Assembly: GCA_012727955.1 (NCBI GenBank)
Contig: JAAYGB010000021.1
Location: forward strand, 1 to 64,000
Origin: Bacillota bacterium
GTDB taxonomy: Bacteria; Bacillota; Limnochordia; DTU087; JAAYGB01
Reading direction: 5' to 3'
DNA length: 64,000 nt
The notes beneath the pieces are model-generated. The model saw nothing but the letters and a program-made list of their open reading frames with translations. It ran no database searches and was not told where the DNA came from. Within the stretch, counting starts at the first letter, position 1, and every line of letters starts with the position of its first letter. The position numbers were made by a program, and so were the translations under genes. Positions 23,697-53,585 of this stretch are shown here, piece by piece.

Positions 23697-25127
23697 CTAG
23701 ATGCCAGAACCGATGATAAAGGCCGAGGATGAGATGATATCACCCATCCCCACGGTAATGGCCGGTCTGGCTACCACCTTCGTAGGCGTCATCACCACAT
23801 AGTGTTCGCCAACCTTGGTGTATCCTTTTTCCGCGAGCTCCGGTGCACCTAGACTGGTCGCCAGTTGCTCCAGTTTGCTCATGCCATCGGCGGACAACTC
23901 TACATCGAGGCCCTGGGCGATTTCGTCGTCGGTACCGATCCTGCCCAGGAGAGCCCGGCTGGCTGCTAGGGTGGCGGCAAGCAGGGAACCCCGCAGGGTG
24001 GTCTCGCCATCGGAATAGCGGCAGTCCACTAGGGTTAAGTAGTAGCCCAGATCATGGAGCTGAATCCGCTTAATTCCAGTAATCTCCATCAGCCGATTGA
24101 CTCCGGCAAAAACCGCTTCGATGGAATTCTCCTTTTCCAGGTTAGCCGCAAGTTCCTCTTCACCAATGTCCTTGAGAATGGCCAGAAGCTCTACTTCGTT
24201 TAGGCCTAGGCTGTGTACCACCGTTAAGATGTGATCCACAATGCCCTTGCGGATCTGACCGCTGGCAATGGAGGCAAACTCGTAGTGCATCTTCAGGTTG
24301 GGGTTCTCCAGCTTCACCTGCTTGAGGTAGTCTGCCACCGGCAGCAGGTAATCCTTCCAAGTGGTTCCATCGGGATAGCTTTCCGAGAGGATGTGGAACC
24401 CACTGACCAGCATATGGGTAAACTCATTGATGTGCTCCTGCAGCCCGGCTTTGAAGTTCGGGTCGATCTGCAGCTTGTTGTTGATTGGATTCCAGGCAGC
24501 AATAAAGCGATTGGCCCTGGGTGTAGTGAATTTCAATCCCGGCAGGTCGATTTCTTCGCCGGCTTGATACTCAAAGATCCAGTGCAGCGCGTAAATGCCC
24601 TCATTTTCCCAGGCCTGATGGGGGTGGGCCAGGCGATGATCCGAAGTAAGTACATTGAGATTAGGTGCATCGGCGAAGAGTTCTGCCTGCTCCCTGGTTA
24701 AGGGATTGGCGTAGACCAGGATCTTATCAAAGGGGAGGGGGCAGAGGGAATTGGCCATGTTGCCGGAAGTGCCTCCCATCCGGATTTCATCATAACCGAA
24801 ATTCTCCATAGTCCAATCGGCGGTCTCTTGGTTGCGGATCATCAGCTGCAGGGCTTTGCCCCTTTGCATCGAATCGATCAGTGCCACCAAGAGATCTACG
24901 GGACCGTTAATTTCCGGGGGTACCGACCCTAACCGATCCAACACCTGTTGCAGCAGTGATTCATCCTTGGTCAGGATTTCTTGGAGGATCGGAGCGGTGA
25001 TTCGCTTCAGTCCGTCGATGGTTGAGTGAAATCCTAAAATGATACCTGGGACATCGCGAACTTCCTGTAGACTTTGCGGCAATGCTTCTTGATACAGTTG
25101 ATTCCAGGTTTGCCTTTTGTTATTCAA
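23697..25127 (-). CDS. ADP-dependent sugar kinase (glucokinase/phosphofructokinase family)
   Basis: A 476-aa ribokinase-fold kinase of the ADPGK/ADP-PFK family, which uses ADP rather than ATP to phosphorylate glucose or fructose 6-phosphate. Visible signs are 'MGGTSGNMANSL' (substrate-side Gly-rich loop, about 118), 'MHYEFASIAS' (metal-binding Glu region, about 281), 'IQLHDLGYYLTL', and 'TVGMGDIISSSAF' near the C-terminus, containing the GxGD catalytic Asp. Length matches archaeal members. A divergent paralogue lies at 52146-53585. Which sugar is used cannot be read from sequence. It is divergent from the IMPACT-family gene. Confidence 0.85.
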   Translation of the reverse strand: MNNKRQTWNQLYQEALPQSLQEVRDVPGIILGFHSTIDGLKRITAPILQEILTKDESLLQQVLDRLGSVPPEINGPVDLLVALIDSMQRGKALQLMIRNQETADWTMENFGYDEIRMGGTSGNMANSLCPLPFDKILVYANPLTREQAELFADAPNLNVLTSDHRLAHPHQAWENEGIYALHWIFEYQAGEEIDLPGLKFTTPRANRFIAAWNPINNKLQIDPNFKAGLQEHINEFTHMLVSGFHILSESYPDGTTWKDYLLPVADYLKQVKLENPNLKMHYEFASIASGQIRKGIVDHILTVVHSLGLNEVELLAILKDIGEEELAANLEKENSIEAVFAGVNRLMEITGIKRIQLHDLGYYLTLVDCRYSDGETTLRGSLLAATLAASRALLGRIGTDDEIAQGLDVELSADGMSKLEQLATSLGAPELAEKGYTKVGEHYVVMTPTKVVARPAITVGMGDIISSSAFIIGSGI

Positions 25128-26943: not shown

Positions 26944-27059
26944 TTCCCGGCAGTAAGTTCCTGTTACCAACGACTTCGCGTCCCGTGGGTGGACAGGATG
27001 CAGGAGATGACTTAGGCGGCGGGGAATATCTGTCCATACGCTGGATGGAAGGTGATGGC

Positions 27060-28100
27060 ATGGACAAAGTTATTGACCTACGCAGTGATACAGTAACACA
27101 ACCAACGCCCCAGATGCGGGAGGCGATGGCAGCAGCCCCCGTTGGCGATGACGTCTATGGAGAAGACCCGACGATCAATCGGTTAGAGGCCTTGGCCGCG
27201 GAGAAGGTTGGTAAGGAAGCTGCCTTGTTTGTCCCCTCAGGGACCATGGGTAACCTGTTGGCATTGCTGTCCCATACCCGCCCAGGCCAAGAAGTGATCC
27301 TGGAGGCCAACAGCCACATTTACAACTATGAAGTGGGGGGCATCGGAGCCATTGCGGGACTGATCCCCAGGGCTATTTCCGCTCCCGATGGGGTGGTTAC
27401 CCCTGAGCTGGTACAGTCCGTCCTGCGAAATCGAGAACTGCACTTTCCCGATCAAGCCCTGTTGTGTTTAGAAAATACCCACAATGTGGCGGGAGGTACC
27501 GTTACCCCTCCGGAAACCTTGGCGGAAGTAGCGACGGTGGCCAGGAGCGCAGGTTTGGCTGTGCACCTTGACGGAGCCCGGGTGTTCAATGCCGCTACTT
27601 ACCTAAAAAGGCCGGTAACGGATATTACTGACCAGGTAGATTCGGTGATGTTTTGTTTGTCTAAGGGCCTGGCGGCTCCCGTGGGATCAATTTTGTCCGG
27701 CAGCCAAGAGTTTATTAATCGGGCCCGGAAGTTTCGCAAACAATTGGGCGGAGGAATGCGCCATGCCGGGGTTCTAGCGGCCGCTGGGATCATTGCCTTA
27801 GAGCAAATGACTACCCGGTTGGATCAGGACCATGCCAATGCCAGGGCCCTGGCTGAAGGTTTAACCCAGGTGCCGGGCTTTACCGTGGATCTAAGCCGGG
27901 TGCAGACTAATATCGTCTTTGCGACCATCGACCCCGAGTTGATTTCCGCCCCGGAAGTGTGCCGGCGCCTAGCCCAACGGGGAATTGTGTTGTCTCCGAG
28001 AACGGAGCAATCCATTAGATTTGTCACCCATTATCAAATCAGTGCCGAAGATGTTAGCTATGTATTAGCCTGTTTGCAGGAAGTAATGAATGAGATTTAG
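27060..28100 (+). CDS. ltaE: Low-specificity L-threonine aldolase
   Basis: A 346-aa PLP enzyme splitting L-threonine/allo-threonine to glycine and acetaldehyde (and reversibly handling beta-hydroxy amino acids). Fold-type I signs are 'DLRSDTVTQPTPQMREAM' at the N-terminus, 'VPSGTMGNLLAL', 'HLDGARVFNAA' and the PLP lysine in 'FCLSKGLAAPVGS' (about residue 200). The frame is open back to 26985, but the conserved N-terminus begins at the ATG at 27060, with AAGGTGAT just before it. A TrpB-like gene follows 31 bp downstream, so they may be one transcript; both act on beta-substituted or hydroxylated amino acids. Confidence 0.92.
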   Translation: MDKVIDLRSDTVTQPTPQMREAMAAAPVGDDVYGEDPTINRLEALAAEKVGKEAALFVPSGTMGNLLALLSHTRPGQEVILEANSHIYNYEVGGIGAIAGLIPRAISAPDGVVTPELVQSVLRNRELHFPDQALLCLENTHNVAGGTVTPPETLAEVATVARSAGLAVHLDGARVFNAATYLKRPVTDITDQVDSVMFCLSKGLAAPVGSILSGSQEFINRARKFRKQLGGGMRHAGVLAAAGIIALEQMTTRLDQDHANARALAEGLTQVPGFTVDLSRVQTNIVFATIDPELISAPEVCRRLAQRGIVLSPRTEQSIRFVTHYQISAEDVSYVLACLQEVMNEI

Positions 28101-28131
28101 CTGAGTTTGAGAACAGCGAGGAGGAGCCTAG

Positions 28132-29385
28132 ATGAGCAAAGAGCAAAAAGCTGTGATTAGCCAGGGTAAGACTAATTCTGTATCGGGAGACCAGTTGGGG
28201 GTTAACGGGCTTTACGGGGAGTTTGGCGGCAGTTATGTTTCACCGGAGCTGCAGCGGGTCCTGGATCACTTAGAGGAAGCCTTTCTTCGCTATCGGGATG
28301 ACCCAGAGTTCTTGGCGGAATTAGACTACTACAATCGGGAGTATGTTGGTCGTCCCAGTCCGCTGTATTTTGCCGAAGGGCTAACAGAGCATGTCGGTGG
28401 TGCCAAGATCTATCTCAAGCGAGAGGATCTCAACCATACCGGAGCCCATAAGATTAACAATGTCATCGGTCAAGCCCTGCTGGCCAAGCGCATGGGAATC
28501 AAGCGGGTGATCGCCGCGCCCGGTGCCGGTCAGCATGGGGTGGCGCCGGCAACGGCCTGCGCCATGTTTGGGATGGACTGCACGGTGTATATGGGCGAGG
28601 AAGATACTAAACGCCAGGCTCTGAATGTATTCCGGATGGAGCTTTTGGGAGCCAAGGTGGTCCCGGTGACCACGGGAACGAGAACCTTGAAGGATGCCGT
28701 CGATGAAGCCCTCCGGGATTTAACCGCCAACTATGAAACTACATACTATATGTTGGGTTCCGTCGTTGGGCCTCACCCCTTCCCCCTGATCGTGCGTCAC
28801 TTCCAGTCGATTATCGGGCGGGAAGCTCGGGCCCAGATTCTAGAGAAAGAAGGCCGACTTCCAGATTATCTAGTGGCCTGTGTTGGCGGCGGGAGCAACT
28901 CCATTGGTCTATTTGCTCCCTTCTATGACGATACTAGTGTTGCTATGATCGGCGTTGAGCCGGGAGGGGTTGGCAGCGGCCCCGGTGAACACGCCGCTCC
29001 CCTGACCTATGGTCAACCGGGCATTCTCCATGGTTTCAAATGCTTTGCCACCCTCGATGCCTCCGGGGAGCCGATTCCCACCCATTCCGTAGCCGCAGGT
29101 TTAGACTATCCCGGAGTGGGGCCGGAACACAGCTTCTACAAGGTCTCTGGAAGAGCCAAGTATGTCACCATCACCGATGACGAGGCGCTAAAGGCTTTCA
29201 AGGATCTCTCCCGGCTGGAGGGAATTATCCCCGCTCTGGAAAGTGCCCATGCCGTAGCCCATGGGATGAAACTAGCCGCCCAGTGTGACCGGGATCAGAT
29301 TATCATCGTCAATGTATCTGGCCGGGGTGACAAGGACGCCGCCCAGGTCTTTGCGATGATGGAGAAGAAGCAGTTTAGTTTGTAA
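28132..29385 (+). CDS. trpB: TrpB-like enzyme lacking the catalytic glutamate
   Basis: A 417-aa fold-type II PLP enzyme aligning over its full length with tryptophan synthase beta chain (serine + indole to tryptophan). The PLP lysine is K107 in 'HTGAHKINN', the phosphate loop is 'GGGSNSIG', and 'SGRGDKD' binds the pyridine ring. The loop that reads AETGAGQHG in TrpB reads 'AAPGAGQHG' here: the catalytic Glu (E109 in Salmonella, 22 residues after the PLP Lys) is A129 and the next Thr is P130. Q134 is kept. No trpA or other trp gene is adjacent. The reaction may therefore differ (another nucleophile or beta-elimination). GGAGGAG precedes the ATG. The gene ends with a perfect palindrome. Confidence 0.85.
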
Positions 29386-29520: not shown

Positions 29521-30795
29521 GTGCCGATAATTGAAGGTGGATTTGACATCAATTTTCCCCAGATGGTAACAATTAGACAGAGTTTCGTCGCTGACAAAAT
29601 CGATGATATCGAGGCTGCCGTGGCCGCGGAACTGGCCAAACCGGAAATTCGTGGTCAGTTTCAGGCGGGACAATCGTTGGCGGTAACCGTGGGCAGCCGG
29701 GGGATCAGCAATATTGCCCGGATCACCAAGGCCGTCATCGACAACCTCAAGGCCCTGGGTGTTGCTCCCTTTATCGTTCCAGCCATGGGCAGTCACGGAG
29801 GCGCCAATCCCGAGGGTCAACGGGAGGTCTTGGCCAGTTACGGTGTGACCGAGGAAACCATGGGTGTACCCATTCGCGCGGAAATGGATGTTGTTTTGGT
29901 GGGCCATACCCCCGATGGTGTAGAGGTCTATGTCTCCAAGCCCGCGATGGAAGCTGATGGCATATTTGTGGTCGGGCGAGTGAAGCCCCACACTGCCTTT
30001 CGGGGCAAGGTTGAGAGCGGCTTGATGAAGATGATGGTGATTGGTCTAGGAAAGCACAAGGGTGCCACCGTCATTCATCGCCAAGGATTCGCCCGCTTTG
30101 CCGAGTTAATCCCCGCGGCCGGGCGAGTAATCCTCGAGAAGGCGCCGATTCTGGCGGGGCTGGCCATCGTGGAAAATGGTTACGATGAAACGATGCTGCT
30201 GCAGGCAGTGCATCCCAATGATTTTGAGGCAGAGGATGCCCGTTTGTTGACCATTGCCCGGGAGAACATGCCCCGGATTCTCTTCGACGACTTTGATCTT
30301 TTGATCGTGGAGGAGATCGGTAAGGACATCAGCGGCGATGGGATGGATCCCAACGTCACCGGACGCTATATCCCTCGGCATTTGGATGTGATGGATCATA
30401 CTCCCCGGATTCAGAAGGTGGTGGTCCTGGACCTCACCGAGGAAACCCACGGCAATGCCAACGGTTTAGGTATGGCCGATGTTATTACCCGGCGGCTCTT
30501 TGAAGGGATCAATTTCCAGTACACCTACGCCAACTCCATCACCTCTACGGAAATAAGGGGTGCTAAGATCCCTATGGTTATGGAGACGGACCATCAGGCC
30601 ATTGTGGTGGGCTTGCGTACCTGTAACGGCGTGGAACCGGAAGAGGCCAAGGTAGTGCGCATCAAGAATACCTTGGAGCTGTCGACGATTGAGATTTCCA
30701 CTGCTTTGCTGCCGGAAGCTAAGGCGAATCCCAGGATCGAAATAGTGGGAGAGCCAAAGGCCATGGAGTTTACCACCGATGGTCGGTTGATTTAA
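29521..30795 (+). CDS. Lactate racemase-domain (LarA-like, DUF2088) protein
   Basis: A 424-aa protein of the LarA/DUF2088 family. LarA proteins racemise 2-hydroxy acids with a nickel-pincer cofactor. Two His-containing motifs are seen: 'AMGSHGGANPEGQ' (about 79-91) and 'GRVKPHTAFRGKVESG' (about 151-166), followed by 'GLGKHKGAT'. The LarA motif GGRKS with the cofactor-bound lysine is not obvious; 'FRGK' may stand in its place. The cofactor makers LarB, LarC and LarE are not in the window. Substrate is therefore open. Start is GTG with AAGGAGG upstream, downstream of the repeat at 29465-29490. Confidence 0.82.
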   Translation: MPIIEGGFDINFPQMVTIRQSFVADKIDDIEAAVAAELAKPEIRGQFQAGQSLAVTVGSRGISNIARITKAVIDNLKALGVAPFIVPAMGSHGGANPEGQREVLASYGVTEETMGVPIRAEMDVVLVGHTPDGVEVYVSKPAMEADGIFVVGRVKPHTAFRGKVESGLMKMMVIGLGKHKGATVIHRQGFARFAELIPAAGRVILEKAPILAGLAIVENGYDETMLLQAVHPNDFEAEDARLLTIARENMPRILFDDFDLLIVEEIGKDISGDGMDPNVTGRYIPRHLDVMDHTPRIQKVVVLDLTEETHGNANGLGMADVITRRLFEGINFQYTYANSITSTEIRGAKIPMVMETDHQAIVVGLRTCNGVEPEEAKVVRIKNTLELSTIEISTALLPEAKANPRIEIVGEPKAMEFTTDGRLI

Positions 30796-52145: not shown

Positions 52146-53585
52146 TTGAATACTGAACTCTGGCAAGGGTATTTGCAGCAGGCCTGTCAAGAAAATTTAA
52201 ACCTTCGCGTCTTTGCAGCCTTCAATACTAATGTTGACGTGGTGGCTCACATTACCAGTGAAAAGATCCAGCGATTGCTTCAAGACAATCCTGATATCGA
52301 TATGCAAGCTGTGCAAAATCGCAGTGTTGAAGACGTTGGGGTAATCCGTTCCAAGGAAGACTTCCTCGTGGTCCTCCGAGACATGATGCAAGAGGGCAAG
52401 AGCTTTCACATCGTCCTTGAGGGACGGGAGTTGATGAACTGGTTAGACAAGCAGTTTGCCGGCGAATCTGAGCGTATGGGCGGACAGGCGGGAATCATCG
52501 CCAACCAAATGGCTGCCCTGGGGGCAGAAGCCATCGCCTATACCGCTCTGCTGTCACCGAAGCAAAGCAGTCTCTTCGATGACCGGGTGAAAACTCCCCT
52601 GATCGATGACGGCTTTGGACTGGCTCCCATCCGGGAGGCGGCCCGACCCGAGGACGAGACGAAGATCAACTGGATCTTTGAGTATGGCAAGGGTATTGAG
52701 GTAGACTTTGGAGTTGCTAAGGTGGTCACTCCCCGGGCCAATCGAGTGATTGTGGCAACGCGACCGGCCGGTGCCGTGATGTCCTTCCAGGAACCTGTGG
52801 TAGAGTACTTACCGGAATTAGGTGCCTCCAGCGAAGTGGCCTTTATGGCTGGTTACCATTACGTTGACACCACCAATCCCGATGGCCGCAGCTACGAAGA
52901 ATTCATGCAGGACACCGTGGACCATCTGCGGGCGCTGAAGAGTAAGAACCCTGCCCTGAAGCTGCATTACGAATATGTACCGATGAAGTACGCGGAAATG
53001 GAACCGGAAACCTTGCTGCGGGTGGCCAGCGAGATCAAGAGCTTTGGCATCAATGAAAACGAAATTCGGCGAGTCTTGACGGAGTTTGGGTTTGAGGCCG
53101 AATCCCAGGCCATTGCCGAGGACGAACGGGCCTATTCCCTGTATCAGGGCGGCCTGCGTCTGCTGGAAAAGATGCAGGTGGAGCGGGTTCAGGTACATAA
53201 CCTCGGTTATTACGTGCTGTTGCTCAGGAAGGACTACCCCATTGCACCGGAGAAGGTCCGTCAAGCCTGTCTCTTTGCCTCTGCAGTGAACGCGATGAAG
53301 GCGCGGTATGGCGGCTATCCCGGTCCCAGTCAACTGGAGGAAGCCAAGGATATCCAGTTGTCGGATATTGGCTACACTCAACTAAAGGGCTTTGCCAAGG
53401 AAATGGCTGAAAAGCACGGACTGGATGCCCAACAGTTGATGGAAACCGGCTATGCCGTGATGGAGGACCATATCGTGATGGTGGTTCCTGCCCATGTGAT
53501 TCCGGATCCCGTCAGCACTGTAGGGATGGGGGACACCATTTCCTCTTCCTCCTATGCCATGGAGGTTCAACTGGGCAAGGAATAA
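52146..53585 (+). CDS. ADP-dependent sugar kinase, second paralogue
   Basis: A 479-aa ribokinase-fold kinase of the ADPGK/ADP-PFK family. Visible motifs are 'FNTNVDVVAHIT' near the N-terminus, 'RMGGQAGIIANQMAAL' (about 116), 'LHYEYVPMKYAEM' (metal-Glu region), 'VQVHNLGYYVLLL', and 'STVGMGDTISSSSYA' (GxGD, about 459). It is clearly diverged from the paralogue at 23697-25127, so the two may split the glucokinase and phosphofructokinase roles. Start is TTG with AGGAGGGTCG upstream. It stands just before the tandem T-box leader. Confidence 0.87.
   Translation: MNTELWQGYLQQACQENLNLRVFAAFNTNVDVVAHITSEKIQRLLQDNPDIDMQAVQNRSVEDVGVIRSKEDFLVVLRDMMQEGKSFHIVLEGRELMNWLDKQFAGESERMGGQAGIIANQMAALGAEAIAYTALLSPKQSSLFDDRVKTPLIDDGFGLAPIREAARPEDETKINWIFEYGKGIEVDFGVAKVVTPRANRVIVATRPAGAVMSFQEPVVEYLPELGASSEVAFMAGYHYVDTTNPDGRSYEEFMQDTVDHLRALKSKNPALKLHYEYVPMKYAEMEPETLLRVASEIKSFGINENEIRRVLTEFGFEAESQAIAEDERAYSLYQGGLRLLEKMQVERVQVHNLGYYVLLLRKDYPIAPEKVRQACLFASAVNAMKARYGGYPGPSQLEEAKDIQLSDIGYTQLKGFAKEMAEKHGLDAQQLMETGYAVMEDHIVMVVPAHVIPDPVSTVGMGDTISSSSYAMEVQLGKE

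Follow-up and report, generated by a model that had tools for sequence, protein, structure and literature searches.

A standalone tryptophan synthase beta-subunit homologue in a Bacillota metagenome assembly with Ala-Pro in place of the catalytic Glu-Thr: possible loss of indole use

Results

The window, i.e. the whole stretch of 64,000 nucleotides that was analysed, contains an intact trpB-like gene with a strong ribosome-binding site (table 1) and, as the first-pass annotation had recognized, ltaE upstream of it. The two genes are probably co-transcribed, and the true start of ltaE may be the ATG at 27060. In relatives, ltaE is found on other contigs or far from trpB; because the adjacency is thus private to this genome, the ltaE neighbour does not discriminate between the readings of trpB discussed below, and the neighbour genes in the window give no pointer to a phenol or thiol pathway. 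A nickel-pincer-cofactor isomerase gene follows just 3' of trpB. The window also holds two paralogous ADP-dependent phosphofructokinase/glucokinase-like genes, both scoring under the NCBIfam equivalog cut-offs.

Table 1. Features of the trpB locus and its surroundings (window coordinates).
Feature	Position	Strand	Basis or remark
ADP-dependent phosphofructokinase/glucokinase-like gene, first paralogue	23697-25127	-	PF04587
ltaE / GntG-type PLP aldolase gene, 31 nt upstream of trpB	26985-28100	+	ORF list, profile search
AGGAGG ribosome-binding site, 7 nt 5' of the ATG	28119-28124	+	sequence
intact ORF of the standalone TrpB1 clade, 417 aa, ATG start	28132-29385	+	TIGR00263, tree, AlphaFold
K107, PLP Schiff-base lysine (St K87)	28450-28452	+	invariant
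A129 (gcg) replacing catalytic Glu (St E109)	28516-28518	+	codon reading, alignments
P130 (ccc) replacing Thr (St T110)	28519-28521	+	codon reading, alignments
G131-A-G-Q-H135, remainder of substrate-carboxylate loop, unchanged	28522-28536	+	alignment
P139 (ccg) replacing near-invariant Thr	28546-28548	+	Thr in 101/107 relatives
R161 (St R141), salt-bridge residue, kept	28612-28614	+	alignment
D325 (St D305), salt-bridge residue, kept	29104-29106	+	alignment
nickel-pincer-cofactor isomerase gene, group 22	29521-30795	+	NF052515, 552 bits
ADP-dependent phosphofructokinase/glucokinase-like gene, second paralogue	52146-53585	+	PF04587

The comparison with the TrpB1 and TrpB2 families that had been suggested in the first-pass annotation places the product above the TrpB1 cut-off (TIGR00263, 577 bits, cut-off 392), whereas membership in TrpB2 is out, the TIGR01415 score of 182.7 bits being far under the cut-off of 518.85. 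An AlphaFold model, made from an input alignment of 38 sequences, has a pLDDT of 86.8, and its best matches in the PDB are TrpB crystal structures. The PLP lysine K107 and Q134 do sit at the spacing, coordinates and frame described before. Together with K107, the glycine-rich phosphate loop (G252-N256, GGGSN), H106, GAGQH, D158, K187, Y206, Y326, E370 and GRGDKD are all as in relatives, and so are R161 and D325, which correspond to the COMM-domain salt bridge Arg141/Asp305 in St numbering. In the carboxylate loop, T-G-A-G-Q-H has become P-G-A-G-Q-H, i.e. the first residue is altered and the other five are unchanged. An alignment of the pocket revealed no diagnostic accompanying change at its other residues; F305, T307, S257 and C385 are uncommon residues of this protein.

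A129 and P130 align gap-free onto the catalytic Glu and Thr of LBCA TrpB (5ey5) and P. furiosus TrpB (5dvz), the motif in this alignment of solved TrpB being given as (I) followed by 11 residues, and the earlier assignment of the codons gcg ccc to the Glu-Thr site of TrpB is therefore correct. All 107 aligned relatives, drawn from genomes of the class and from GTDB contigs, have E at 129 and T at 130, with the window as the sole exception. A motif census of the class, which required exact GAGQHGVA flanks such that variants with other flanks would escape, found the motif 62 times, in 51 of 73 genomes, with 61 reading GAR-ACN and the window as the odd one out; in a phylum sample of 399 genomes, every row among the matches listed reads GAR-ACN. 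An Ala-Pro orthologue group thus appeared neither in the aligned relatives nor in the class motif matches nor in the phylum matches listed. When 113 columns with at least 99% conservation were compared (leave-one-out), the window TrpB was intact at 111 and broke two only, which are the adjacent A129 and P130. By these counts, the presence of Ala-Pro exceeds chance. A check for a catalytic residue that defines the family found it missing from this record, and we therefore advise against annotating the ORF as a functional tryptophan synthase beta subunit. The same gene contains a third change, T to P at residue 139, which had been overlooked in the first-pass annotation.

A quick maximum-likelihood tree places the window TrpB among 55 standalone TrpB1 sequences, which it separates from 53 operon-type TrpB with an SH-aLRT of 100, the position of the window TrpB within the standalone clade being less firm. 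This standalone clade of Bacillota comprises loci L003-L019, L032-L067 and L069 plus the window gene (28132-29385), and its marker residues, in window positions, are D for N at 191, L for I at 208, P for A at 277 and A for S at 321. In the flanking sequence retrieved, all 54 standalone relatives lack both trpA and the gene for indole-glycerol-phosphate synthase (IGPS), in contrast to nearly all operon copies. The nearest members of the clade show 64-75% identity and have the same length as the window TrpB. The closest of them (71-75% identity) come from five genomes of the order, which contain the standalone copy only, with Glu-Thr kept, and neither TrpA nor IGPS; in Bacilli, the standalone copy usually occurs beside a second, operon-type TrpB in the genome (both in 17 of 20 genomes tested). 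Class relatives (L149-L152, L154-L158) keep the gene order ketohexokinase-like (PF25270), trpB, FMN-binding (RnfG-like) and RseC-like, and a chorismate-synthase-like gene frequently lies within a few genes of the standalone trpB. Our literature search found no paper on the role of this clade. Because the close relatives in the order hold only a standalone Glu-Thr copy and no TrpA or IGPS, the parent function most plausibly was the synthesis of tryptophan from serine and salvaged indole. It had been pointed out before that there is no trpA nearby, and indeed none adjoins the gene; by itself, however, a missing trpA is uninformative on altered function, because the entire parent clade is standalone and yet keeps Glu-Thr.

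The genome in question was assembled from a metagenome (97% complete, 66 contigs), with trpB on a contig of 74 kb. No TrpA reaches the cut-off anywhere in it, nor in 11 order-mates, and the search for a separate canonical trpA/trpB pair proposed in the first-pass annotation thus ended without a TrpA. IGPS was also found neither in this genome nor in the 11 order-mates, and chorismate synthase, which is present in 20 of 20 relatives searched alongside, was not found in this genome. Because all three are missing from a 97%-complete assembly, the organism is likely to be an aromatic-amino-acid auxotroph; with chorismate synthase undetected, the organism probably cannot make Tyr de novo. TrpB1 itself is wholly missing in six of the 11 order-mates, and the gene is therefore dispensable in this order.

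Discussion

A central question is whether the Ala-Pro pair is genuine or reflects a local error in the consensus of this metagenome-assembled genome, in which case the true organism would have Glu-Thr as well as Thr139 and thus an ordinary standalone, probably indole-salvaging TrpB. All three odd codons (129, 130 and 139) differ by one A>C, each right after a G and all within 30 nt, and none of the other eight lineage-unique changes in trpB is of this kind. This is the pattern of Illumina miscalls, which are often preceded by G and among which A-to-C has been reported to be the commonest substitution (PMC3334598), and an error would also agree with a protein that otherwise follows its family and with relatives that all keep Glu-Thr. 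Yet the pattern is partly forced, as E to A and T to P can be reached by a single base only via A>C, and the contig is long. Moreover, the organism's own RpoB (L234) breaks 15 of 567 columns that are invariant in 28 relatives, which is among the highest numbers, and not one of these breaks arises from a single A>C that follows a G. In the two neighbours of trpB, ltaE and the gene for the nickel-pincer isomerase, two conserved columns each are broken, again never in this way. An assembly that is error-ridden throughout can thus be dismissed. With its many RpoB breaks, the lineage stands alone on a long branch, which leaves room for genuine change. Branch rates on the window side versus the order side are 0.52 versus 0.41 for trpB (approx. 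1.3-fold), 0.40 versus 0.41 for rpoB and 0.58 versus 0.69 for ltaE. Decay of the whole gene was rejected, with just two near-invariant columns broken and a rate near normal, as was a templated inverted-repeat correction, in which all three changes would gain pairing in a single register (28516-28520 with 28542-28546); six registers allow this, which is about the chance level in such a G-rich stretch. Overall, we somewhat favour a genuine change over a consensus error, without certainty and with the two close in weight; the error is a serious, quite possible alternative.

Our preferred reading, with a rough probability of 0.45, is that the loss of the Glu is real and private to this lineage, that tryptophan synthesis is lost and that either residual aminoacrylate chemistry persists or the gene is being lost. 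A vertically inherited standalone TrpB1, i.e. a beta subunit working without TrpA, would here have had its indole-activating Glu and the adjacent Thr swapped for Ala-Pro, in an aromatic-amino-acid scavenger and in this lineage alone. The protein would still fold, bind PLP and turn L-serine into enzyme-bound aminoacrylate; as a tryptophan synthase, however, it would be largely dead, because it could not stabilize the charge on indole N1. The aminoacrylate might be let go as pyruvate and ammonia, which would make the protein a weak serine/threonine deaminase, or the gene may be heading for loss. P130 may also weaken serine binding, because Thr110 is part of the carboxylate loop. Glu109 hydrogen-bonds indole N1 and stabilizes charge during the attack on the aminoacrylate (PMC9512447), and a plant TSB-like protein with Glu to Ala makes no tryptophan, a little of which was restored when the Glu was put back (PMC12727527). 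Because of this role and these inactive plant proteins, the encoded protein is expected to be poor at making tryptophan or unable to make it, in line with the abnormal indole attack that the first-pass annotation had expected.

Several observations count for a real loss. The ORF is intact behind its strong ribosome-binding site and seated in a fully supported clade (SH-aLRT 100) whose members have no adjoining trpA or IGPS gene; TrpA and IGPS are missing in the genome and the 11 order-mates, chorismate synthase is missing in the genome, and order-mates can do without trpB. The A>C-after-G pattern is missing in RpoB and the two neighbours, and the contig is 74 kb long in an assembly of 66 contigs. 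The remaining active-site residues are intact, and the plant TSB-like pseudoenzymes are a precedent for Glu to Ala at the same site. What counts against a real loss is that decay should scatter lesions, yet 111 of 113 columns are intact and the branch exceeds that of the order-mates by a factor of only approx. 1.3, that the three clustered changes are as a miscall would yield, and that chorismate synthase is a single missing gene in an assembly that is 97% complete. What we observed is that the assembled sequence carries altered residues, that the protein belongs to the standalone clade, that its partner genes are missing and that the rest of it is conserved. The chemistry and a relaxed need for tryptophan synthesis are what we infer.

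Alternatively, loss of the Glu could open the aminoacrylate to phenol, giving tyrosine in a TmTyrS-like reaction, or to a thiol, i.e. the protein could be a neofunctionalized beta-substitution enzyme. TrpB variants engineered at this position (Tm9D8 E105G, TmTyrS6) convert phenols or naphthol into tyrosine derivatives (PMC12909874; PDB 8egy), and such an activity would be useful to an organism in which no chorismate synthase was detected and which probably makes no Tyr de novo. Purifying selection across the remainder of the protein and the few unusual residues (F305, T307, S257, C385) would also fit. However, no orthologue shares the change, the pocket outside the loop shows no concerted change, the neighbour genes are silent on phenols and thiols, and P130 would upset the serine-carboxylate loop as well. 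We regard such an enzyme as unlikely, and a little more so its specific form, a natural TrpB that lacks the catalytic Glu and uses a non-indole nucleophile (with phenol to tyrosine as the best-precedented case) after loss of the chorismate pathway. Of the first-pass proposal, a changed or absent use of indole is borne out by the sequence as recorded; the different beta-substitution or elimination enzyme is no more than a candidate, given an unshared change, no co-change in the pocket and a private ltaE neighbour. As a possible candidate for a new beta-substitution enzyme, the protein has the residue itself as its one positive pointer.

The identical Glu to Ala exchange in the plant TSB-like protein (PMC12727527) also raises the idea of a pseudoenzyme that allosterically activates TrpA. 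Yet TrpA and IGPS are missing in this genome and order, and the second TSB-like mark (Asp386 to Glu) is missing too, with D325 kept; with no TrpA found in a 97%-complete genome, this function is practically out. The LBCA 'Res6' account of standalone activity was likewise discarded, with none of the six Res6 letters present in the window protein.

If the lineage-private loss of the Glu is real, this would be the first bacterial TrpB seen without its indole-directing Glu, as far as our search goes, in a genome that showed no TrpA, IGPS or chorismate synthase. It would also offer an experiment of nature on the laboratory finding that this Glu bars TrpB from other nucleophiles. Should Ala-Pro instead be an error of the consensus, it cautions against inferring catalytic loss from one metagenome assembly. 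Whichever origin of Ala-Pro holds, the comparison reveals a large Bacillota clade of standalone TrpB1, all with Glu-Thr.

With this clade of bacterial TrpB1 (TIGR00263), the window protein has in common 64-75% identity, length, the PLP lysine, the phosphate loop, the COMM-domain salt-bridge pair, a TrpB-like AlphaFold model and the lack of an adjoining trpA, but it has lost the catalytic Glu (St E109 / Tm E105) and the adjacent Thr and has the extra Pro139. A trpA partner is absent from its genome, and also from order-mates whose TrpB has Glu-Thr. With TrpB2 (TIGR01415) it shares the superfamily, at 183 bits versus a cut-off of 519. The laboratory enzymes TmTyrS and Tm9D8 E105G reportedly keep the Thr that follows the Glu. 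They have in common with the window protein only a TrpB scaffold altered at the same Glu (PMC12909874; PDB 8egy), and they are laboratory-evolved with other pocket changes. The plant TSB-like pseudoenzyme (PMC12727527) shares Glu to Ala at the same catalytic position; there, the protein activates TrpA and has Asp386 changed to Glu, while the window protein, from another clade, has no TrpA and keeps this Asp (D325). Finally, plTrpB of Pelodictyon luteolum is also a TrpB1 encoded outside the trp operon and has activity of its own (PMC11917138), but its catalytic Glu (E104) is present and its genome includes a trpA, whereas the window protein lacks the Glu, trpA and all six Res6 letters.
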